Virus record (IMG/VR): IMGVR_UViG_3300022150_000093
Span: 1 to 49,056 of that record
DNA: 49,056 nt
Reading direction: 5' to 3' (one strand)
Source of the DNA: a virus
Position numbers and translations under genes: made by a program. The stretch's first letter is position 1. Every line of letters starts with the position of its first letter. The notes below the pieces were generated by a model. That model was not told the origin of the DNA. It ran no database searches and worked only from the letters and a program-made list of their open reading frames with translations. Below, one piece after another: positions 4,510 to 46,113 of the stretch.

Positions 4510-5567
4510 GCTGCCTCCCCTGTAAGCCGAGGTGGCGTGCTGCTTTCGTCGCACAGCCCGTAGGATGAGCTGCAAGCGCTGGCGTCTGCATTCTCGGTGA
4601 ACAGGTCGTAATGAATGCCCCCCCTGGTCGTCTTCGACCATTCCACGGCCTGCCGAATGCTGGCCACTTCCATGATTTCCAGAGCTGACATATTGGCGAT
4701 TGAGCCCTTCGGATGCTTGGCGTTGGAGCCTGCGAAAAAGGTAGCAGCCCCGCGCTTGCTCGCTTGTTGAACGATTTTTTCCCAGCGGTCGATACGGTCA
4801 ATTGCTTCCGGGAAGCGCAGGGCGATTTCGCGCAGCTCATCCTTGCGGCAGTTGATGCAGGGCATGCACCCGACTCGGCCCATGCCTTGGGAGTAGAGCG
4901 GGTTGGGTTTAATGCCCATGTAGCGGTGGGCTTCAAATACGCCTTCGATATCCCACTTCAGGATCGGCCGGTAGTTGTACAAACCACCACCAACATAATC
5001 CGTCTCGGGCAGATAGCGGCGGTTGATCGATTCAGCAGCGCGCACGCCCTGCCAACTGATGATCATGCTGCTGGTTTCCATCAGGGGCATCACTACCTGT
5101 TCAAGCATCGGCTCTGTTTTAAGCTCTGAGGTGCAGAACTGGGCTTTGCGTGATGGGAACCGGCCTTTCCAGATGCATAGGTCCAGGAATGGGTTACCGG
5201 TTGGCTGGAGTACATCGAGTGCGGCTAGAACCACGCTCTCTTCTATGCCCTGGGCCCGCCATTTGGTTTCAATGAAGCGGCGCTTACCTTCGATCTGGCG
5301 GGTAAAGTCGGCTTTGACTCGAGTGATCTTTACGCCTGTCGCTTGCTCCAGGTAATCCAGGTAGGCATAAGTTTCATCGTGCTCATTGCCGGTGTCAGCG
5401 AAAGCGCCCTGCAGGTTGGGTACGTCCATGCACATGGCCACCAGCAGGGTGGCTGTTGAGTCTTTGCCGCCTGACACTGACACGACGTTGCGCTGCGGGC
5501 CGGTTAGTTCGTTGGTTGGAAGCCATGGCCAGTTGATTATCAGCTCTTTAGTGGGGATGAGATTCAC
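4506..5567 (-). CDS. PAPS-reductase-like PP-loop protein
   Basis: This 353-residue protein belongs to the phosphoadenosine phosphosulfate reductase/ATP pyrophosphatase superfamily. The PP-loop SGGKDS occupies residues 32-37. Cysteine-rich segments (QFCTSE and GCMPCINCRKDE) resemble iron-sulfur or metal ligands. Cellular PAPS reductases make sulfite. Phage members of this family have unclear roles, and relatives such as DndC take part in DNA sulfur modification, so a nucleic-acid role is possible but unproven. The start overlaps the stop of the DNA methyltransferase gene (ATGA, 5564-5567), which suggests coupled synthesis and perhaps a joint function in DNA modification or anti-restriction. 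Confidence 0.85.
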   Translation of the reverse strand: MNLIPTKELIINWPWLPTNELTGPQRNVVSVSGGKDSTATLLVAMCMDVPNLQGAFADTGNEHDETYAYLDYLEQATGVKITRVKADFTRQIEGKRRFIETKWRAQGIEESVVLAALDVLQPTGNPFLDLCIWKGRFPSRKAQFCTSELKTEPMLEQVVMPLMETSSMIISWQGVRAAESINRRYLPETDYVGGGLYNYRPILKWDIEGVFEAHRYMGIKPNPLYSQGMGRVGCMPCINCRKDELREIALRFPEAIDRIDRWEKIVQQASKRGAATFFAGSNAKHPKGSIANMSALEIMEVASIRQAVEWSKTTRGGIHYDLFTENADASACSSSYGLCDESSTPPRLTGEAA

Positions 5568-7648
5568 GCTGCCACCTCCAGCTGCTCAACCGGCGCCGGC
5601 GGGTTGACTCGCAGTAGCGCTGCCATGGGGTAGGGGCTGACGCTGTTGCCTACCATTTTGACCTGGGCGGATTTGCTGAATGTGCGGCCGTCGTGGCCGT
5701 GGGTGTGAATGTAATTGCTGGGGAAGCCTTGGCAGCCGTAGAGCTCGGGTGGCTGGAGCATGCGCAGGCCTATGTCGATGATGACGTAGGGGTTGCCCTG
5801 GATGACGACGGTGACCAGTGCCAGGCGGTCTTTGGTAGTGATGGTGGGCAGTGGCGCGTTCGGCGCTGAGGTGTTGTCTGTGCCGTAGTAGCTCATCAGG
5901 AAGGCGGCAACGCGCAGGGCTTTTTCTTCGATCACTTCCGGTGACAGGGTGCATTCGACCACGGCGGTCTTGCCGCCACCGCCTGCGGTGGTTGTTGGGG
6001 CTGGCTGATCCATGACCTGGCCAATGCTGTTGCCGAACTGGCGCGACAGGAATGCAGTGGCGATCGCGTGGTGGGTGCCGTTGGCGTTGACGGTACGGAG
6101 CGGTTCATCAAGCTGGCGCACGTCGCAGTGTTGGTTCAGTTGCACCAGGTTGGCGGCGACCAGCTGCTGTTGGCTGCCGGTGTTGGTGATGGTGCTGGCT
6201 GGCTTGGTGAGTGCGTGCCCGGGCGTGGTGTTGAATCCGCCGTTCATTTGGGCGAGGTAGGCGCTGGCGATCGCATGCTTTACGCCGCCGGCGACTACGG
6301 TGCCCAGTGGCTTGTGGATGTCGAGCGCGCGCGGGGCCTGGCCTTGGCTTTCACCGTAGCCGGTTTGCACCAGCGTGGGCGCTGCCAGCATCATTTCGCC
6401 GCGGTGTGCGGTGGTGATGGTGGGTAGCGGTTTGGTTGGGTCGTTGATGCGGTCGCTGCCGTGGTGTGTGGCGGGCAGCAGTACGGCGCTGGCTACGCCC
6501 ATGGCATGAGCTGCGCCGGCAGGTCGGGCGCAGTTGCCGCCGCTGGTGATGACGGGCAATGGTTCGTCCAGGCGCTGGCCTGCGTGTTGGCCACGGAATT
6601 TGACCAGGGTCGGTGCTGCAACGGCAATGCCGGGCGCGGTGGTGATCGTCCGGGCTGGTTCCAGCGCTGACCAGACGTTGGGCCCTCTGCCCGTTGTTTT
6701 GCTGTTGGCCACGTTCACCAGGGTCGCCACGCTAGTGATCGGCACAATGAACGGCTGGTTGGTGTTGAGCACGAACTTGTGAATGCCCTTGGCGATACGG
6801 CGCATGGTGGCGTCGGCCAGTGGGCGGGGTCGCTCGAAGATGGACGGGCAGGGCAGGGTGAAGTCGATATGCTCTGCTGCGGCCGGCCACTTCTTTTGGC
6901 CGCGCTTGGGCTTTTCAAAGTGGGTGGGCTCTGGCCAGTTGATGGGTTGGCCGTCGCAGCGGGCGACGAGGAACAGGCGTTCGCGGGTGGTGGCGGCGCC
7001 GAAGTCGCACGCTTTGAGCAGCTTGTGGTCGACCTGGTAGCCGAGCTGGCCGAGGTGCTGCAGGAAGGCGCGCCATGTTTTGCCTTTGCGCTTGGGGTCC
7101 GGTACCAGGAATTGCTGCTGCAGCGGTACGCGCTCACCGGGTGCGGCCACGCGGTTGATGGTTTTGCCGGTGGTGGGGCAGGTGATGCGCTCGAGCGTTA
7201 CCACGCGGCCGGTGGCTTTGCAGCGCTTGGCGATCAGCGGGCCCCAGTTGCGGATCTGCATGACGTTTTCCATGGTGATCATGTCTGGCCTTGCCTGGCC
7301 TGCCCACATGCAGATGACCCACGACAGTGACCGGCTGGCGGTACTACGCGGTTGGCCGCCAGCTGCTTGGCTGTGGTGGGTGCAGTCGGGGCTGGCGTGC
7401 AGGTGGGCGACCTGCCTGCCCATGGTGACGGCCAGGGGTTTGACTTCGTACACGTCGCAGGTGAAGTGCCGGGTGTGCGGGTGGTTGATGATGTGCATGC
7501 TGACGGCGTCGTCGCTGTGGTTGACGGCGATATCAACGGGCATGCCGGTGGCCATTTCGGTGCCGGTACTGGCTCCGCCGCCGCCAGCGAAGAGGTCGAC
7601 GCGGATTTTGTCGGCGTAGTTGAGTTGGTATTGGGTGTGGAGGTTCAT
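5564..7648 (-). CDS. Phage DNA cytosine-5 methyltransferase with tandem internal repeats
   Basis: This 694-residue C5-cytosine methyltransferase probably shields phage DNA from host restriction. Motif I (DLFAGGGG) spans residues 18-25. The catalytic cysteine is C89 in the atypical motif IV SPDCTHHS, where most relatives have PPCQ. ENV (motif VI) is at 127-129. The C-terminus has a QPPELYGCQGFP segment and a GNSVSP motif, corresponding to motifs IX-X. Between the two halves lies a long region with about eight degenerate copies of a P-(L/A)-x-T-(I/V/T)-T/G unit, 30-50 residues apart, which looks like duplicated target-recognition modules. An AAAGGAG ribosome-binding site precedes the ATG. Confidence 0.93.
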   Translation of the reverse strand: MNLHTQYQLNYADKIRVDLFAGGGGASTGTEMATGMPVDIAVNHSDDAVSMHIINHPHTRHFTCDVYEVKPLAVTMGRQVAHLHASPDCTHHSQAAGGQPRSTASRSLSWVICMWAGQARPDMITMENVMQIRNWGPLIAKRCKATGRVVTLERITCPTTGKTINRVAAPGERVPLQQQFLVPDPKRKGKTWRAFLQHLGQLGYQVDHKLLKACDFGAATTRERLFLVARCDGQPINWPEPTHFEKPKRGQKKWPAAAEHIDFTLPCPSIFERPRPLADATMRRIAKGIHKFVLNTNQPFIVPITSVATLVNVANSKTTGRGPNVWSALEPARTITTAPGIAVAAPTLVKFRGQHAGQRLDEPLPVITSGGNCARPAGAAHAMGVASAVLLPATHHGSDRINDPTKPLPTITTAHRGEMMLAAPTLVQTGYGESQGQAPRALDIHKPLGTVVAGGVKHAIASAYLAQMNGGFNTTPGHALTKPASTITNTGSQQQLVAANLVQLNQHCDVRQLDEPLRTVNANGTHHAIATAFLSRQFGNSIGQVMDQPAPTTTAGGGGKTAVVECTLSPEVIEEKALRVAAFLMSYYGTDNTSAPNAPLPTITTKDRLALVTVVIQGNPYVIIDIGLRMLQPPELYGCQGFPSNYIHTHGHDGRTFSKSAQVKMVGNSVSPYPMAALLRVNPPAPVEQLEVAA

Positions 7649-14624: not shown

Positions 14625-14769
14625 ATTCAACCTGCACCAGGGTTGGGCTGCGTTGCTTGAGGCGGTAGAAGTCCAGGCCACTGAAGTCCAGTTCCATGGT
14701 GTCGGGATAGCCGTTTAGGAGGTCTTTAAGCATGCCAACCGTGATCAATTCGCTAGGGTTCTGAGCCAT
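14563..14769 (-). CDS. Conserved-type small phage protein, convergent orientation
   Basis: The 68-residue product begins MAQNPSELITVGMLKDLL and contains DFSGLDFYRLKQRSPTLVQVEFNQ, a pattern I associate with a conserved small protein in phage and mobile regions. The start at 14769 follows AGAAGGAA. It is the only minus-strand gene in the rightward early region. The longer open frame upstream is probably not coding. The function is unknown. Confidence 0.6.
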   Translation of the reverse strand: MAQNPSELITVGMLKDLLNGYPDTMELDFSGLDFYRLKQRSPTLVQVEFNQQVYRDKQTGRVVVENLE

Positions 14770-15955: not shown

Positions 15956-17006
15956 CAAGACGGGCATTGAGTGGACAGACGCGACCTGGAACCCGATACG
16001 GGGTTGCTCCCGCGTGAGTGAGGGTTGCCGTAACTGCTATGCGGAGACGGTGGCGGGGCGGTTTAGTAAGCCTGGGTTGCCGTATGCGGGGCTGATCGCC
16101 AAGGGCGGGCAGTGGAATGGCCAGGTGCGGTTGCTGCCTGAGATGCTGGACCAGCCGTACCGCTGGACGAAGCCAAGGCGCATCTTTGTGAACAGTATGA
16201 GTGACCTGTTTCACGAGAATGTGCCCTTTGAGTTTATCGCTTCGGTGTTTTTCGTTATGGGCGTCACCACGCGCCACACCTACCAGATTCTGACTAAGCG
16301 GCCCGAGCGCATGCTGGCGTTCTTTGATTGGCTGGGTGAAGACGACCGCTATGACGATGAAAGGATCATGGACTACTGGCCCAAAGGGTTGGAGTGGACG
16401 CCGGCGCACGGCGGGCGGGGTGGTTACGACAACTGCGGGCCGGTGTGGCCGTATGAGAACGTTTGGCTTGGTGTGAGTGTTGAGGATCAGGCGACTGCTG
16501 ATGAGCGCATTCCCTTGTTACTGGAAGCGCCGGCGGCGGTGCGGTGGATTAGTGCTGAGCCGTTGTTGGGTCATGTTGATATTGCTTGGGCGCTTGGTCA
16601 CATCTTCGGGATCGCTGCCGGGTTTTTGGAGCGTGGTAGCTTTTCACCTGGCTTGGAAACACTGAGACCACTTGATTGGGTTGTGGTGGGTGGTGAGTCT
16701 GGTGCCAAGGCCCGGCCTATGCACCCTGATTGGGCGCGATCGTTGCGTGACCAGTGCGCTAAGGCCGGTGTGCCTTTCCTGTTCAAGCAGTGGGGCGAAT
16801 GGTCGCCGCGTGGGCCTGAGTCGATGGGTTATAAGCCTGTCGATGATGTGCCCAGAATACGGCTGACGGATCTGGGCGAGAACGGCCACGACCTGGGCGC
16901 GGAAGGTGAAAACCAAGTGCATATGCAGCGTATCGGCAAGAAAGCCGCTGGCCGCTTGCTGGATGGCGTTCTGCATGACGGTTATCCGGGGGTGGCTGAT
17001 GCCTGA
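15948..17006 (+). CDS. DUF5131 (Gp37/Gp68-like) radical-SAM-type protein
   Basis: This 352-residue protein belongs to the DUF5131 phage family. Its N-terminus has IEWTDATWNPIRGCSRVSEGCRNCYAE, with spaced cysteines that could hold an iron-sulfur cluster as in radical-SAM enzymes. It continues with LLPEMLDQPYRW, ILTKRPERM and VVVGGESGAKARPMHPDWARSLRDQC, all family hallmarks. The substrate is unknown. AGGAGG seven bases upstream fixes the ATG at 15948. It lies in the early operon just before the primase. Confidence 0.85.
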   Translation: MGDKTGIEWTDATWNPIRGCSRVSEGCRNCYAETVAGRFSKPGLPYAGLIAKGGQWNGQVRLLPEMLDQPYRWTKPRRIFVNSMSDLFHENVPFEFIASVFFVMGVTTRHTYQILTKRPERMLAFFDWLGEDDRYDDERIMDYWPKGLEWTPAHGGRGGYDNCGPVWPYENVWLGVSVEDQATADERIPLLLEAPAAVRWISAEPLLGHVDIAWALGHIFGIAAGFLERGSFSPGLETLRPLDWVVVGGESGAKARPMHPDWARSLRDQCAKAGVPFLFKQWGEWSPRGPESMGYKPVDDVPRIRLTDLGENGHDLGAEGENQVHMQRIGKKAAGRLLDGVLHDGYPGVADA

Positions 17007-18060
17007 TTTCCCTGATCTGACGCTGGATGACTTGGCTGGCATTCTTGACTGCGTGTCTGCCGACTGTGGTCACGAGACGCGCGCGCGGGTGGCGATGGGT
17101 ATCAAGCATGAGTTTGGTGAGGATGGTTTTTCGGCCTGGTCATCTTGGTACCGGAATGCTCCAAAGTGGACTGAGAGTGAGTTGAATAGCATCTGGAAAT
17201 CCTGCAAGGGGTCTGGTGCTAAGGGCACGGTCACTATAGGCAGTGTGATCAACTTGGCTAAGGAAAAGGGCTGGACCCGTGAACGGCGTGAGCTGTCTGC
17301 TGCTGAAAAGCGCCAGATGAAAAAGGATCAAGAAGCCAGGCGCTTGAAACGCCAGGCGGAGCTGGAAGCGGATCAGGCGCGGTTGCTGGCGATGCAACAG
17401 CAGGTGCAGGCGGCGACGATGCGATTGTTGGCTGAGTACACCAAGCCGCGCGGGAAAAGTGACTACCTGGCGCGCAAGCAGGTAAGTGCCTTTGGTGTGC
17501 ACTTCATTACGCGGCCTGTGGTGTTGAGTATTGATGACCAGCTGCAGCGCTGCGATCTGTGGGCGGGTGATGATATCAAGCGGTTCTTTGATAGCCTGCC
17601 GAACCCGCGCCCTGACCACCACAGTTTCATGATGCTGAAGCCTGGCACGTTCATTGTGCCGCTGGCGGATATTGATGGGGTGATCTGGTCGTTTCAGTCG
17701 ATCAGCCCGAGCGGTACCAAGCTGTTCCCGAAGTACGCGCGCAAGTCGGAGTGCATGCATTGCATTGGGTCGCTGGAAGATGCCGAGGTGATTGCTCTGG
17801 CTGAGGGCTATTCCACCTCAGCCAGTTGCTTTATGGCGACTGAGTGGGCGCTGGTGATGACGGTTGATGTGGGCAACATGGCGAAGGTGGCCAGGTTGCT
17901 GCGGGCGCGGTACCCGAATGCGAAGCTGGTGTTGGCGGGTGATGATGACCCGAAACCGGACGGCAAGAACCCTGGCCGCACTCAGGCGGAAGCTGTGGGT
18001 GCTGAGCTGGGTGTTGTGGTGGCGTTCCCGCGTGTGCCGAGCCAGAAGGTGGCGGCATGA
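16999..18060 (+). CDS. Phage primase with PriCT-2-like and Toprim domains
   Basis: The product has 353 residues. Residues 1-90 (DLAGILDCVSADCGHETRARVAMGIKHEFGEDGF...WSSWY) match the PriCT-2-type primase C-terminal module. A charged coiled coil follows. The C-terminal half is a Toprim domain, with the acidic strand EVIALAEGYSTSAS and the DDDP motif (LVLAGDDDPKPDG). It would synthesise primers or load replication proteins at the phage origin. It overlaps the helicase gene by four bases. The start at 16999 overlaps the end of the upstream gene by eight bases. Confidence 0.85.
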   Translation: MPDFPDLTLDDLAGILDCVSADCGHETRARVAMGIKHEFGEDGFSAWSSWYRNAPKWTESELNSIWKSCKGSGAKGTVTIGSVINLAKEKGWTRERRELSAAEKRQMKKDQEARRLKRQAELEADQARLLAMQQQVQAATMRLLAEYTKPRGKSDYLARKQVSAFGVHFITRPVVLSIDDQLQRCDLWAGDDIKRFFDSLPNPRPDHHSFMMLKPGTFIVPLADIDGVIWSFQSISPSGTKLFPKYARKSECMHCIGSLEDAEVIALAEGYSTSASCFMATEWALVMTVDVGNMAKVARLLRARYPNAKLVLAGDDDPKPDGKNPGRTQAEAVGAELGVVVAFPRVPSQKVAA

Positions 18061-19811
18061 CTGCGCGCAAGATTGACTGGAATGATCTGCACTGCGAGTT
18101 CGGCCTTGATGAGGTGCGGCATCAGCTGCTGAAGGCGGCGGCGAATGAGCCGGCCGCGCGGCAGGCCAGCCAGGCTGATGTGATGGCGGACCTTCCCCCG
18201 GCCCCATCTGCGGCTGAGCCCGCCGGCTCTGGAAACGGGGCTGCTCCTACTGAGGGGGAAGGGGAGGGCTGGACGCTGGAAAGGGTGCTTGCACGCTTTG
18301 CGTTGGTTGAGGGCGAAACCAAGGTGTTCGATCTGTACCGCAAGGCGACTGTGAAGAAAACCGGGTTTGAGGCGATGCTGGGCAAGGCGCTGGCTAAAGC
18401 CTGGTTCGATCTGACCAATAAGAAGATGATTGATGTGGACCATGCTCGACGCCTGGAAGCGGAGGCGAAGCTGGGCAGGCGCTTGCAGAAGGTGACGGGC
18501 GAGAAGGGCCCGGATGTGTTCTGGCGCTATGTGTACCTAGATGGTTCGCAGGATATCTATGACCGGCAGTTGCGGCAGCGGTTGCCCTCGGGCGCTGTGA
18601 AGCTGGCGTTGGGTGATGCGTTCAGTGCTTGGCAGAACTCGAACCAGCGCCGGACGATACCTGCGGAGAATCTTGTATTTGACCCGCGCATGACTCAGTG
18701 CCCTGCCGATACCATCAATACGTTTGAGGGCTTGCCCCTTACCCCGAACCCCGATCATGAGTTGTGCGCTGGCATCGTGAAGCTGGTGCGGTTCTTGTGT
18801 AATGGCCAGGATGATGCGTTGCACTGGCTGCTGTGCTTTCTGGCGTACCCGTTGCAGAAGGTGGGCGCGAAGCTGGACACGGCGGTGCTGATGCATTCGA
18901 CCATGGAAGGCTCGGGGAAGTCGCTGCTGTTCGATAAGGTGATGCGCGTGATCTATGGGGAGTATGGCGCGACGGTCGGGCAGGCGCAGTTGGAGTCCAG
19001 CTGGACGGCCTGGCAGGCGAACAAGCTGTATGGCCTCTTTGAAGAGGTGGTAAGCCGCGACCAGCGTTACAACCAGGTGGGCAAGATCAAGCACATGGTG
19101 ACGGGCGCAACGGTGCGCATTGAGTCGAAGTTTGTGAACGGCTGGGAAGAGGCGAACTATATGAACGCTATCTTTCTGAGCAACGAGATTATGCCCTGGC
19201 CGATTGGCGAGAATGACCGGCGGATGTTGGTGCTGTGGCCGGAGCGTACCCTGCCGCCCAATGCGCAGCAGCGCATCAAGTGGGAGTTGGCCAATGGTGG
19301 TATCGAGGCGTTCTACCATTATCTGCTTGAATACCCTACGGGTGACTTTGACGAGCGCACGCGGCCGCCGCATACACCAGCCCGGCAACGGCTGGTTGAG
19401 CTGAGCCGGGCCAGCTGGGAAACGTTTTACTTTCAGTGGCGGGCAGGTGAGCTGGGCGTGCCCTTTGATATGTGCCTGACTCAGGATCTGCATGATCTGT
19501 TTCTGGAGTGGTGTGCAAAGTCTAAAGAGCACTCGTTGAGCGGTACCAAGTTCAGCCTGTTCCTGTCGACCAAGCCGGATACCTACAAGACCACCACGCA
19601 GATCGGCTGGGTGGATGATCACAAGATGAAGCATCGCTCGATGTTCTTTACGCCTTCCCCGCCCGCCAACCTGAAGCTGTCTGACTCCGCGCAGGTGGGG
19701 CAACAGGTGCATGAGTGGCGCCTGGCTGCGTGGCGGGCAGGGTGGAAGCTTGAGAAGTGGGAGAAGTGCGTTGGCTTTGCAGCGCCGCTGGCCGGATCTG
19801 GGGGCAAATGA
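18057..19811 (+). CDS. DUF5906/SF3-type replicative helicase
   Basis: This 584-residue protein has a Walker A loop (HSTMEGSGKSLLF) near residue 282 and further ATPase features (LYGLFEEVVSRDQRYNQVGKIKHMVTG, YMNAIFLSNEIMPWPIGENDRRMLVLWP) typical of DUF5906-domain primase-helicases. The N-terminal 90 residues are a Pro/Ala-rich linker region. With the overlapping primase it forms the replication module. The iteron-like array at 19825-20104 begins 14 bp after its stop and may be its target. Confidence 0.88.
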   Translation: MTARKIDWNDLHCEFGLDEVRHQLLKAAANEPAARQASQADVMADLPPAPSAAEPAGSGNGAAPTEGEGEGWTLERVLARFALVEGETKVFDLYRKATVKKTGFEAMLGKALAKAWFDLTNKKMIDVDHARRLEAEAKLGRRLQKVTGEKGPDVFWRYVYLDGSQDIYDRQLRQRLPSGAVKLALGDAFSAWQNSNQRRTIPAENLVFDPRMTQCPADTINTFEGLPLTPNPDHELCAGIVKLVRFLCNGQDDALHWLLCFLAYPLQKVGAKLDTAVLMHSTMEGSGKSLLFDKVMRVIYGEYGATVGQAQLESSWTAWQANKLYGLFEEVVSRDQRYNQVGKIKHMVTGATVRIESKFVNGWEEANYMNAIFLSNEIMPWPIGENDRRMLVLWPERTLPPNAQQRIKWELANGGIEAFYHYLLEYPTGDFDERTRPPHTPARQRLVELSRASWETFYFQWRAGELGVPFDMCLTQDLHDLFLEWCAKSKEHSLSGTKFSLFLSTKPDTYKTTTQIGWVDDHKMKHRSMFFTPSPPANLKLSDSAQVGQQVHEWRLAAWRAGWKLEKWEKCVGFAAPLAGSGGK

Positions 19812-19824
19812 TGCCGTTACATGC

Positions 19825-20104
19825 AAGGGTTGCTAGGCATGCGCTAGGGTTCGATTTACCAACCCTAGCACGCAAAAACTTTGCCAGATCATGGGTTTAC
19901 GCCTCCGTGCTAGGGTTGCACCGCTTACGGGGGCGCGCGCGCGTAAAAAACATCAAAACAGCCTATATGGCGTTTTTTTCTCACGCACAAGGAAATAACC
20001 CTAACAACCCTAGCAACCCTAACACTTAGATTAAAAGATACTGATTTATAAGGGTTTTAGGTTGCTAGGGTTGGGTTAGGGTTTGGCGGTTTCGTACTAG
20101 GGTC
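19825..20104. repeat. Iteron-like array of G(C/T)TAGGGTT, candidate replication origin
   Basis: The 313-bp gap between the helicase gene and the next ORF is filled with a 9-bp motif in both orientations. Clear copies lie at 19843-19851, 19861-19869, 19909-19917, 19997-20005, 20006-20014, 20015-20023, 20064-20072 and 20075-20083, with degenerate ones near 19825-19837 and 20095-20104. The three at 19997-20023 are exactly tandem. The flanking clusters are complementary and enclose an AT-rich segment (20024-20050). The position after primase and helicase fits a phage origin. A GCGCGCGCGC tract lies near 19933. Confidence 0.65.
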
Positions 20105-20124
20105 TGATTTTAAGGGGTAAGCCG

Positions 20125-20562
20125 ATGATTGAAGTGATCGAAAGGGCACTGATTGCTTGGGGGCATGAGTTCCGGACGCGGGGCACTGTAGCGGCGTTGC
20201 CCTGCACGTTGGGGTCTGCCATCGATAACAAGGGCGTGTTCATCCGCAGTACGGCTGGGCAGGGCGGGGGTGGGGTTGATCTGTACTCGGGCGACCTGGG
20301 CGCAGTCGGTAGCGCTGTTGAGGCGGCGCTGGTTGCGATCCGCCAGCCGGTGCCTGCCGGTGGGCTGGGGCAAGTGGGTGTTGAGCTGGTGAAGCTGGCC
20401 CGCGTGCGTTACCTGGCTGACCCTATGCCGTTGGTTGAACATCAGATGAGGCGGATGGGCTGGCGGAGTGAGACCACGCACGGGGTGAAGCTGCACCACC
20501 TGCACAGCGCGTTGGAGCCTGTGCTGCTTCGTGAACTGCCTTGGCTGAAGCGCGTTGCATAA
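20125..20562 (+). CDS. Hypothetical protein in the late-regulator position
   Basis: This 145-residue protein (MIEVIERALIAWGHEFRTRGTV...) has a basic C-terminal half (VEHQMRRMGWRSETTHGVKLHHLHSALEPVLL). AAGGGG precedes the ATG. It occupies the place between replication and lysis/packaging genes where lambdoid phages carry an antitermination protein Q. No Q-family motif is recognisable, so that is inference from position only. Confidence 0.65.
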   Translation: MIEVIERALIAWGHEFRTRGTVAALPCTLGSAIDNKGVFIRSTAGQGGGGVDLYSGDLGAVGSAVEAALVAIRQPVPAGGLGQVGVELVKLARVRYLADPMPLVEHQMRRMGWRSETTHGVKLHHLHSALEPVLLRELPWLKRVA

Positions 20563-26351: not shown

Positions 26352-27541
26352 AAATGAATCGGCATGTGATTGGCATGGCACTTGCGGCACTTGCCGCATT
26401 GCCATTCCGCGTGTTCAACAAAATGGCCTCGCCTGAGTTGGATGAAAAGCATTGGTACCGCATTGACAACAATGCGGAGGAACCCGGCAAACCCATTGAA
26501 GTGCTGGTATATGGCGAGATCGGCAACTGGGGCATCACAGCCGCACAGTTCTTTCGTGATCTGGCTGCAGTTGATGATGGTGTGCGACAGATTCACGTGG
26601 GCTTCAACAGCAACGGCGGCGACATCAGCGATGGCTTTGCCATGCACAACGGCTTGAATCGGCTTGGTGAGCGCTGTGTCGGACGGATCGACGGGTTTGC
26701 GCTCAGTGCTGCGGGCATTGCCGTGACTGGCTGCCACAAGGTTTGGATGGCGGACAATGCCATGTTCATGATGCACAACCCCTGGACCTGGACAAGCGGT
26801 GACAGTGATGTGTTTCGCAAGATGGCGGATGTGCTTGACCAGTTGGTGACCGGCATTATTGCCAGTTTCAAACACCGCCCGATCACTGTCAGCGACGAAG
26901 AGCTCAAGCGGATGATCAACGCGGAGACATGGCTAACAGCGGAAGAGGCCAAAGCGATCGGGTTGGTTGATGAGATCCTCTCAGGCGGTGCTCGCGTCAA
27001 TAGCCACGGAGATACGCGCATCATGAACCGGTACCGCAACATTCCGGATGCCGTCAAAGCACAACTGGATGCAGAGCCGGACCCAGAGCCGCCAGAACCC
27101 AATCCAGCGCCGGAGCCGCCTGCCCAGGATGACCCCCCGGAGGAAGATCAGGAGCCAGAGCAGATTGCAGCCACACTCGCGATCGAGCTGATTGCCGCCT
27201 GCACCAAGGAAGGCATCGGCAACTTTGCCCAACACATCATCAAAGCCAGCGGCTTGAAGAGCCAGGCCGATGTGCAGCGCGAGATTACCCGCGCCAAGAA
27301 CATCCGCGACCTGTGTGCTGCGGCGCGCATTCCTGAGAAGGCAGAAGGTTTCATCAGCATGGGCCTGACGGAAGATCAGTCACGCGCCCGGCTGTTTGAC
27401 GCGCTGGCCGGCTCAGGCTTTGGGGAGATCGACAACAAAGGCCCTACGGACAACCCGGCCCCAGCGGCCACCACCCGCGCAGTAAACCCTGGCGATATTT
27501 ACGCCAAACGTAAAAACAACGCAGCGAAAGGAGCAGCGTAA
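26348..27541 (+). CDS. ClpP-like head maturation protease with scaffold region
   Basis: The 397-residue protein combines a ClpP-type serine protease (residues about 50-215) with a C-terminal extension. S120 in DGFALSAAGIAV is the nucleophile and H143 in MMHNPWT the general base; HVGFNSNGGDISDG forms the oxyanion region. A Pro/Glu-rich linker (about 240-285) leads to a helical C-terminus likely to act as scaffold, like lambda C/Nu3. It lies between portal and decoration protein. Confidence 0.92.
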   Translation: MKMNRHVIGMALAALAALPFRVFNKMASPELDEKHWYRIDNNAEEPGKPIEVLVYGEIGNWGITAAQFFRDLAAVDDGVRQIHVGFNSNGGDISDGFAMHNGLNRLGERCVGRIDGFALSAAGIAVTGCHKVWMADNAMFMMHNPWTWTSGDSDVFRKMADVLDQLVTGIIASFKHRPITVSDEELKRMINAETWLTAEEAKAIGLVDEILSGGARVNSHGDTRIMNRYRNIPDAVKAQLDAEPDPEPPEPNPAPEPPAQDDPPEEDQEPEQIAATLAIELIAACTKEGIGNFAQHIIKASGLKSQADVQREITRAKNIRDLCAAARIPEKAEGFISMGLTEDQSRARLFDALAGSGFGEIDNKGPTDNPAPAATTRAVNPGDIYAKRKNNAAKGAA

Positions 27542-42893: not shown

Positions 42894-43232
42894 ATGAACT
42901 ACATGGAATCTGCGGTAACCGGTGACAGCTGGACGCGCTGCTGCGCCGTGAAAGTAGCCAACAGCTACCAGCAAGCCCCGCTGGTGGAGTTTGTGGAGGA
43001 GCGCCTGACGGCGCTGAGCGACGGCCGCACCTTGCGCGAGAGCGGAGCCGCACCGCTGAGCCTGCGCTATGAGCCTGGCATGCAAATACCCATGAGGGAC
43101 CCCGCCACAGGCCTGCCGACCGGCGATACATTCCCCATCGATCTAACCCACGCCATGATGTACAGCGCCTACCTGTACGCAGCAGAACAGCGCGACGCGA
43201 TGCAAGCACCGCCGGCAGAGGAGCCCATCTGA
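42894..43232 (+). CDS. Small tail protein preceding the variable adhesin
   Basis: This 112-residue protein (MNYMESAVTGDSWTRCCAVKVANSYQQAPLVEFVEERL) has no recognised family. Its stop overlaps the start of the DGR variable protein (TGATG), so the two are co-translated, which suggests an attachment or chaperone role for the adhesin. Confidence 0.6.
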   Translation: MNYMESAVTGDSWTRCCAVKVANSYQQAPLVEFVEERLTALSDGRTLRESGAAPLSLRYEPGMQIPMRDPATGLPTGDTFPIDLTHAMMYSAYLYAAEQRDAMQAPPAEEPI

Positions 43233-44269
43233 TGGCCTTGACCATATCAGTGACTGACGTGCTGCGCCGCAGCGTCGAAGCGGCCAGCGGCGGGCGCAAT
43301 ACCGTGCTGTACACCACTAAGGGCCAACCCTGTTATATGCACGTGGTGCCGCAGTTTAGCGATGCTGACGGCGTGCACCCCATGTTTGTGGTGGGCGGTG
43401 TGAACAAGCCCCAGCGCTTTATTGGCATGTATCCCGGCGTGATCCGCAGCGGTGAGCTGTTGAGCCTGCCGGGTGAAGATCCCGCGAACAGCGTCAACTT
43501 CGACAACTTTCTCAGCACTGCCCGCAGCAACGGCAATGGCTGGGGATTGATGACCAATGCAGACTGGGCGGGCACTGGGCACCTGTGCCTGCAAAACGGG
43601 TTCCAGCCCAACGGCAACACCAGCTACGGCCGCAGCTCGGACGTGCCGGCTGAGCAGGGCGTGCGTGGCGACGGGCTTGCCATCGGCAGTACCTCCGGCA
43701 ACGCGAGAACCCAGACCGGCTCCGGACCCACAACGTGGCGCCACGACAACACGCCCTGGGGCATAGCCGACTTGAACGGCAATGTGTGGGAATGGTCGCC
43801 GGGCATGCGCATCGTGGCCGGCGAGATCCAGATAGTGCCCGGCAACGACGCAGCTTTAACCGCGCTGGATCTGTCTGCAGCCAGCACGGCGTGGCGCGCT
43901 ATAGATGGCGCAACGGGCGCGCTGGTCAGCCCTGGATCGGCAGGCACAGTGCATTACGCCGTGTCGGGCTCAGGCGATTACACGCTGGTGCGTAATAGCG
44001 GGGGCACTTTTGAGGGTATGACCAACCCCGGAGGCCAGCCTGTGAGCGCCGCTGCACTGACAATACTGAGGCGGCACGGCCTGTTCCCGCGGCAATCTAG
44101 CGGGCTGAGCGGTGATGCCTTTTACATCACGCTAACAGGCGAGCGCGTGCCGGTCCGTGGCGGCAATTGGGCGAATGGCGCGGCCGCTGGCGTGGTCGCG
44201 CTGCGCCTGAACTTCACCCGCTCGAACGCGGTCGCGAACGTCGGTGCCCGCCCCGCTTTTGCGGCCTGA
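43232..44269 (+). CDS. DGR variable protein: C-type-lectin/FGE-like tail adhesin
   Basis: This 345-residue protein is the target of the diversity-generating retroelement and by position is the phage receptor-binding tip protein. The middle carries the formylglycine-enzyme-like signature WGIADLNGNVWEW, typical of DGR C-type-lectin-fold proteins. The last 42 residues (ERVPVRGGNWANG...NVGARPAFAA) contain the variable repeat; the RGGNW and GARP framework residues are unchanged from the template while interspersed codons differ. Variable residues in such folds form an exposed binding surface. In Bordetella phage BPP-1 the same gene order (adhesin, avd, TR, RT) switches host tropism. The start overlaps the preceding gene. 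Confidence 0.93.
   Translation: MALTISVTDVLRRSVEAASGGRNTVLYTTKGQPCYMHVVPQFSDADGVHPMFVVGGVNKPQRFIGMYPGVIRSGELLSLPGEDPANSVNFDNFLSTARSNGNGWGLMTNADWAGTGHLCLQNGFQPNGNTSYGRSSDVPAEQGVRGDGLAIGSTSGNARTQTGSGPTTWRHDNTPWGIADLNGNVWEWSPGMRIVAGEIQIVPGNDAALTALDLSAASTAWRAIDGATGALVSPGSAGTVHYAVSGSGDYTLVRNSGGTFEGMTNPGGQPVSAAALTILRRHGLFPRQSSGLSGDAFYITLTGERVPVRGGNWANGAAAGVVALRLNFTRSNAVANVGARPAFAA
44143..44257 (+). repeat. DGR variable repeat (VR)
   Basis: The 115 bp of the adhesin 3' end align without gaps to the TR at 44730-44844. There are 11 substitutions at the 22 TR adenines (7 to G, 3 to T, 1 to C) and only two at other positions (both T to G). The 3' end holds the identical GC-rich GGTGCCCGCCCCGCT expected of the initiation-of-mutagenic-homing site. 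Confidence 0.95.
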
Positions 44270-44709: not shown

Positions 44710-44997
44710 TAAAGGGCTGGGCGTTATGCGCGCGTGCCGATCCGTGGCGGCAATTGGACGAATGGCTCGGCCGCTGGCGTGTTCACGCTGAACCTGAACA
44801 ACACCCGCTCGAACGCGAACACGAACATCGGTGCCCGCCCCGCTCTTGAGGATCGTCAGAAGCGGTAAGCCTAAGGGCTCGCCGACAGCACACCTTCAAA
44901 AGGACGCCCATTCCTCGGCGCAAGCCGGAATACTAAACAGACAGGCCGTTCCAGTAGCCCGCGACCGTTCGGCCCTGTCGACCCAAAAGCAGGAAGC
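44710..44997 (+). ncRNA. DGR template RNA and structured spacer (inferred extent)
   Basis: The avd-RT interval of 288 bp has no gene. It contains the TR and a 153-bp spacer before the RT start. In Bordetella DGR the RNA across TR and the adjoining spacer is the template and primer for cDNA synthesis. The extent given is inferred from gene boundaries. Confidence 0.6.
44730..44844 (+). repeat. DGR template repeat (TR)
   Basis: The invariant template lies between avd and the reverse transcriptase. In the adhesin frame it reads RVPIRGGNWTNGSAAGVF followed by further Asn- and Thr-rich codons; its AAC, ACG and ATC codons place adenines at the changeable positions. It runs as a same-length copy of VR from 44730 and identity breaks down after 44844. 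Confidence 0.95.
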
Positions 44998-46113
44998 ATG
45001 AAAACTTACTCAAATTTGATTGAACAAATATACGACTTTGAGAATCTGTACCGTGCCTGGCTGCGAGCAGCACAGGGCAAGCGGGCGCGCCCGCAAGTAA
45101 TGCGGTACGGCTACCACTTGGAAGAGAATCTGATAGAACTGCAGAACCACTTGGTGTGGGGCACCTGGCAAACAGGCGAATACCGGCACTTCACGCTGCA
45201 TGAGCCCGTGTACCGTGAAGGCGCGGCGCTGCCATTCCGCGATCGAGTGATGCACCACGCGCTGGTGGCCATCATTGAGCCCTGCTTTGCGCCCAGCTGG
45301 ATAGATCACAGCTACGCCTGCCGCGCTGGCAAGGGCACCCATAGAGGCGCGGACTACGCCCAGGCACTCATCCGCCGCGTACAGCGGCAGCACGGGCAGG
45401 CTTATGCGCTGAAGGCCGACATCAGCAAATACTTCAGGAGCATTGATCACGGTGTACTGAAGCGCTTGATACGCCGCAAGATCACCTGCAAGCCGACGCT
45501 GGATCTGATCGACGGCGTTATTGATTCAACAGCAAGCCCTGATGATGCAAGGCCCTACGGCATACCGCTGGGCAACCTCACCAGCCAACTGTTCGCCAAT
45601 GTATACCTTGATGCGCTGGACCAGCACGTAAAGCACCGCCTGAAAGTGCGCCATTACGTGCGCTACATGGATGACTTCGTGATCATCCACCACGACAAGC
45701 AATACCTGCACACCTTGAGGCTCGAAATTGAAGCCTGGCTGGCAGACCAACTGCACCTTAAAACCAACAGCAAGACACAGATATTTCCCGTCGGCACCCA
45801 CCATGGCCGGGGCCTGGATTTTCTCGGGTACCGCATATGGGCAACTCACCGCCGCCTGCGCAAAGATTCTATTGGCCGAATCAAGCGCAGCCTAAAGCGC
45901 CTGCAGCGTGAATACGCCACCGGCGAAATTGACCTGGAACAGATTAGGCCAGTAGTGCATAGCTGGCTGGCTCATGCCTCGCATGCTGATACTCATGGGC
46001 TGCAAGTTGCGATACTGGGGGCGTTTGGGTTTGTGAGGGATGATCCGAAAGCGGCTAGTTCTGAGTTTCGTCCATCGGCGGGCGCCCAGCAATCTCCTCA
46101 CGCTGAACCGTGA
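44998..46113 (+). CDS. DGR reverse transcriptase
   Basis: This 371-residue reverse transcriptase copies TR RNA with adenine-specific errors. Motifs: [12 protein letters not shown] (D141), [17 protein letters not shown] (residues 189-205), [10 protein letters not shown] with the catalytic YMDD at 223-226, then [12 protein letters not shown] and LDFLGYRI. The LGxxxSQ form replaces the QGxxxSP of group II intron enzymes and is diagnostic of DGRs. No maturase or endonuclease domain is present. The last 20 codons overlap csrA on the other strand and look unconserved. It is preceded by GGAAGC. Confidence 0.95.

Follow-up and report, generated by a model that had tools for sequence, protein, structure and literature searches.

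What is encoded in the roughly 300 bases that lie between the primase-helicase gene pair of a temperate phage and its next gene? The window analyzed here is a virus record taken at its full length of 49,056 bases, and its annotated gene content is that of a temperate tailed phage, with an integrase, CI/Cro/CII-like regulators, primase, helicase, terminase, portal and tape measure. A nucleotide search of a phage collection gave no match; relatives were located in the genomes of Halopseudomonas and Pseudomonas and in sequence-related viral contigs. Taking together sequence comparison, a structural model and analogy with studied replicons, we consider it very probable that the gap is an iteron replication origin and that the C-terminal domain of the helicase itself reads it. 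The features on which this reading draws are as follows.

16906-18060, plus strand: primase subunit, PriCT_2, 384 aa (PF08707, 8e-10; phrog_2249 DNA primase, 1e-61)
18057-19811, plus strand: SF3-type helicase subunit, DUF5906, 584 aa, proposed initiator (PF19263, 6e-17)
19452-19808, plus strand: C-terminal winged-helix domain, residues 466-584, proposed iteron reader (model, Pox_D5, covariation with the word)
19542-19565, plus strand: predicted recognition helix, residues 496-503, with residue 496 a Gly in the window (DSSP on the model)
19812-20124, no strand: candidate replication origin, the whole intergenic gap, directly after the helicase stop (19811) and before the next gene (20125)
19822-19851, plus strand: left iterons L1-L3, starting at 19822, 19831 and 19842 (relaxed site search)
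19861-19870, minus strand: left inverted iteron L4 (relaxed site search)
19908-19917, plus strand: left iteron L5; its partner in relatives, L6, is degenerate in the window (site search, alignment of relatives)
19933-19945, no strand: alternating purine-pyrimidine (Z-DNA-prone) CG tract GCGCGCGCGCGTA, a run of 13
19973-19979, no strand: T tract, conserved in most close relatives (alignment)
19997-20024, minus strand: middle iterons M1-M3, a 9-bp tandem starting at 19997, 20006 and 20015 (site search)
20025-20060, no strand: AT-rich segment, candidate unwinding element (75% AT, 36 bp)
20063-20104, plus strand: right iterons R1-R3, starting at 20063, 20074 and 20095 (relaxed site search)
20125-20562, plus strand: PA0613-like gene downstream of the array, used as linkage control (NF051483, E 2e-4, below cut-off; phrog_4300)

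The repeat array in the gap

A sequence-only reading of this DNA had described at least eight copies of a telomere-like word in both orientations, and the count holds. The exact word GYTAGGGTT occurs 9 times in the window, compared with a mean of 0.36 and a maximum of 2 in dinucleotide shuffles, and 8 of these copies lie at 19843-20083. Shuffles of the gap yield at most 5 comparable sites, as against the 8 observed. The ninth lies isolated at 14752, upstream of a CII-like gene; it fits the chance expectation and was treated as chance. With a relaxed search the array grows to 11 sites between 19822 and 20104, comprising the 8 exact copies and 3 weaker ones. It fills the gap after the primase-helicase pair, as had been claimed, and includes the three exact tandem copies at 19997-20023 with their 9-bp spacing; what had been missed are the three weaker sites, the CG tract and the full layout of the left-hand group, in which three direct sites are followed by one inverted and one direct site. 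To the right of this group come the GCGCGCGCGCGTA tract, the T tract, the three inverted sites, 36 bp of AT-rich sequence and the three direct sites. The inverted clusters do flank an AT-rich core, and only 0.016% of the window's 30-mers are as AT-rich as the best 30 bp of this segment. A short word repeated several times next to AT-rich sequence is a mark of iteron-type origins, and the gap shows it. Within the gap we saw no promoter- or terminator-like site and found no RNA family match, and the strand-switch analysis suggested earlier brought no support, since the GC skew of the window does not change sign at the array.

A fixed layout and a changing word

We compared the gap across 63 non-redundant relatives, window included, and found a median of 11 sites and a minimum of 8. 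The common layout is three direct, one inverted and two direct sites; an alternating purine-pyrimidine tract; three inverted sites in 9-bp steps; about 36 bp of AT-rich sequence; and three direct sites. Spacing varies little (43-49 from M3 to R1, 11-12 from R1 to R2, 19-21 from R2 to R3), and the AT-rich segment has a median AT content of 70% and a length of 33-38. Where the helicase is about 50% identical or more, the array is found at the same place and with the same spacing. The sequence-only reading was to be refuted if the motif proved not to be conserved beside homologous primase-helicase genes; this check did not refute it, as an array stands there at the same position, with a word that changes in concert per lineage. 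Alternating purine-pyrimidine runs of at least 14 are present in 79% of the relatives' gaps as against 0.8% of equally long background windows. In Microbulbifer, Spongiibacter, Oxalicibacterium and Halomonas, where helicase identity drops to about 34-42%, long runs of this kind also lie next to the helicase gene, together with an unrelated word (TCAGACA or GACCGGCA, for instance).

The word of the window is TGCTAGGGTT, and other lineages carry TTACTAGGGT, TGTCTAGGGT, TGGTTAGGGT, TGACTAGGGT, TGTGTCAGGT, TGTGTCGGGT or TGTGTTGGGT; TGTGCAGGGT is the word of Moraxella phage Mcat4, where helicase identity is down to 33%. Copies agree within one genome, and the word changes in concert from lineage to lineage while the layout is kept. 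Arrays that mix several words, as seen in L073, L079 and L121, are as expected for a change in progress. The helicase cores of L072 and L060 fall among the TGTGTTGGGT relatives, yet both have other words and other reader residues. In these two, as in L065 and L037 (phage KT1), the N-terminal primase part diverges from the window more than the helicase part does; in L037 and L065 whole-protein identity is 44% versus about 60% for the helicase. Recombination between the primase and helicase halves therefore appears to take place without regard to the origin word.

The relatives amount to a natural experiment, with many origin words, one scaffold and matching reader sequences, in which the joint change of an initiator and a dozen binding sites becomes directly testable. 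They also place a previously unannotated candidate origin in named phages, among them Turba, Lodos, Meadow, PG1, pAN and KT1. No description of this phage origin was found in the open-access literature.

The protein that follows the word

When the word is mapped onto protein trees, 7 word changes are needed for the C-terminal domain of the helicase, 11 for the helicase core and 12 for the primase, and for iteron base p4 the corresponding numbers are 2, 5 and 7. In a sliding window the minimum of word changes falls at helicase residues 380-569. The PA0613-like gene served as a control for linkage, as it is about as close to the array as the C-terminal domain but on the other side. Over the same 50 rows it requires 11 word and 5 p4 changes, against 7 and 1 for the C-terminal domain, so mere nearness explains the word match poorly and linkage alone is disfavored as the cause of the covariation. 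Judged by these sequence comparisons, the word tracks the C-terminal domain of the DUF5906 helicase, and neither the primase nor the gene across the array. Block exchange of the neighboring C-terminal domain together with the array could yield part of this match, although the neighbor on the other side does not match. Independent word changes are few, and with only 2 well-supported independent pairs a sign test cannot reach significance. We also considered the primase subunit as the reader and rejected it, as similarity among primase sequences is not in step with the word.

An AlphaFold (AF2) model of helicase residues 430-584 has a mean pLDDT of 87, and DSSP assigns to it two helices (475-489 and 496-503) followed by two strands (516-519 and 525-528), an order of predicted elements that is the winged-helix plan. 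The Pox_D5 family PF03288, which we take to be a winged-helix model of P4/D5-type primases, matches the C-terminal domain in 30 of 44 relatives (best 1.3e-5), the window copy not being among the matches listed. A fold search of the PDB with this domain gave weak winged-helix matches only (Cdc6/Orc1, E 0.16), with P4 alpha absent among the matches listed. Searched by sequence, the solved structures gave no credible match to the domain (Hsp75 and RFX5 among others, E at least 0.29).

The best single predictor of the word is residue 496, the first residue of the predicted recognition helix; residues 517 and 527, which the model places in the wing strands, also predict p4. With Asp or Glu at residue 496, p4 is C in 19 of 19 relatives, a pairing for which an acid-to-cytosine contact is chemically plausible. 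Gln or His occurs with G, as does the Ser of the Moraxella relative, and Ala occurs with T in three of four cases (the exception, L060, has C), while Gly, found in the window and in L046, goes with C or T. We think it possible, though less likely than not, that these pairings reflect a protein-DNA code in which residue 496, helped by the wing residues, sets p4, with Asp/Glu specifying C, Gln/His G, Ala T and Gly either pyrimidine. Each change of reader would then make a phage rewrite its full dozen copies, and the scaffold would stay fixed, along with its Z-DNA-prone tract as a sensor of supercoiling. If true, such a code would create private, mutually incompatible origins.

Alternative readings and known replicons

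The sequence-only reading had offered a regulator binding region as its alternative, and this has lost ground. A CI-, Cro- or CII-like protein controlling downstream late or lysis genes from these sites would suit a gap that precedes PA0613-like and holin genes, and the isolated copy at 14752 does lie upstream of a CII-like gene. We nevertheless regard it as improbable: promoter- and terminator-like sites were not seen in the gap, eleven sites in three groups around a melting-like core would make an unusual operator, and the word tracks the DNA-binding domain of the helicase.

Equally small is the chance that the inverted clusters form a large hairpin acting as a single-strand or cruciform origin, as has been proposed for plasmid pRN1 and Bordetella phage BIP-1, where a stem-loop was put forward and the origin was said to lack iterons (PMC4234260). 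The array as a single strand does fold far better than its shuffles (z -5.3), with the three inverted sites pairing with the three direct ones, and in pRN1 the stem-loop lies downstream of the primase-helicase, as the gap does here (PMC4234260). However, the two arms differ in spacing (9 versus 11 and 20), so the pairing looks like a by-product of inverted iterons; a hairpin would also leave the left group unexplained, and the word follows a winged-helix domain, a fold of the double-strand-binding type. The pRN1 protein ORF904 and the phages BIP-1 and BPP-1 share with the window a primase, an SF3 helicase, a winged helix and a candidate origin downstream, and in BIP-1/BPP-1 the PriCT_2 type as well; they differ in that a stem-loop is proposed there and an iteron array here. 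BPP-1 (L123), a near-identical sister of BIP-1, itself carries AAACGAGGCAA as two inverted tandem pairs with an alternating tract between them (about 26,610-26,715 of its record), between bbp28 and an endonuclease gene and about 470-570 bp beyond the primase stop. In a phage type for which a stem-loop had been the sole proposal, these pairs are, from their sequence, a candidate iteron origin.

That the array is a chance or selfish simple repeat, which its likeness to TTAGGG might suggest, can be dismissed, given the excess of copies over expectation and a layout that is conserved while the word changes.

The iteron origin with an unwinding element, which the sequence-only reading also preferred, is best understood beside the SaPI and PICI replicons. 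In SaPIs, the C-terminal domain of Rep recognizes iterons that lie downstream (PMC7581432), and in PICI origins two iteron sets flank an AT region 3' of rep (PMC6092414), a layout that the authors there called unique to PICIs. The kernel of three inverted sites, AT-rich segment and three direct sites has this same arrangement. Further shared features are a primase and an initiator helicase, split or fused, an origin directly 3' of the helicase gene (PMC6092414, PMC7581432) and a C-terminal domain as origin reader, the last two being predictions in the window. In contrast to these satellites, which have no full virion gene set of their own, the window and its relatives are ordinary temperate tailed phages, and the window has terminase large subunit, portal and tape measure genes. 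The putative origin is also larger, with 11-12 sites in three groups at fixed spacing and an additional alternating purine-pyrimidine tract, and the helicase is of the DUF5906/NrS-1 type. A candidate PICI-like origin kernel, with additions, thus occurs in non-satellite temperate phages, and because a wide group of them has this layout, it bears on the ancestry of PICI replicons.

Under the iteron-origin reading, the C-terminal winged-helix domain would bind the repeated word as double-stranded DNA, as its covariation and predicted fold suggest. By analogy with SaPI Rep and P4 alpha, helicase subunits would gather on the inverted and direct clusters that border the AT-rich segment, melt this segment and form rings, after which the primase subunit would start strands. 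As for the left group and the CG tract, they probably aid assembly or absorb supercoil stress, though this is speculative. The alpha primase-helicase of satellite phage P4 likewise has a C-terminal winged helix, of Pox_D5 type, which reportedly reads iterons; P4 differs in having a single fused protein and two sites, ori and crr, that lie apart. The subunits here are split, and the TIGR01613 P4-family primase model gives 12.6 bits, far below its cut-off of 108.7. By sequence, the closest solved structure to the helicase is the helicase region of the phage NrS-1 primase-polymerase (6k9c, profile E 8e-24); the NrS-1 genome differs in having two copies of an 8-nt priming site, TTTGGTTA, of which there is none in the window.

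Downstream of the gap the PA0613-like and holin genes follow, giving the order primase, candidate origin, PA0613-like gene, holin, and PrtN-like and DksA/TraR-like genes lie near the locus in relatives (window 20125-20562; L038-L043). This phage gene order draws on families whose names come from the pyocin region of P. aeruginosa, which suggests shared ancestry without the replication part. Elsewhere in the window, a 694-aa protein (5564-7648) has DNA methyltransferase family matches in separate stretches, and a diversity-generating retroelement is present (44143-44264, 44730-44851, 44998-46113), with a template repeat that precedes the reverse transcriptase gene (phrog_1423) and a variable repeat, 88% identical to the template, at the 3' end of the gene at 43232-44269; 12 of the 15 differences between the two repeats are at template adenines.
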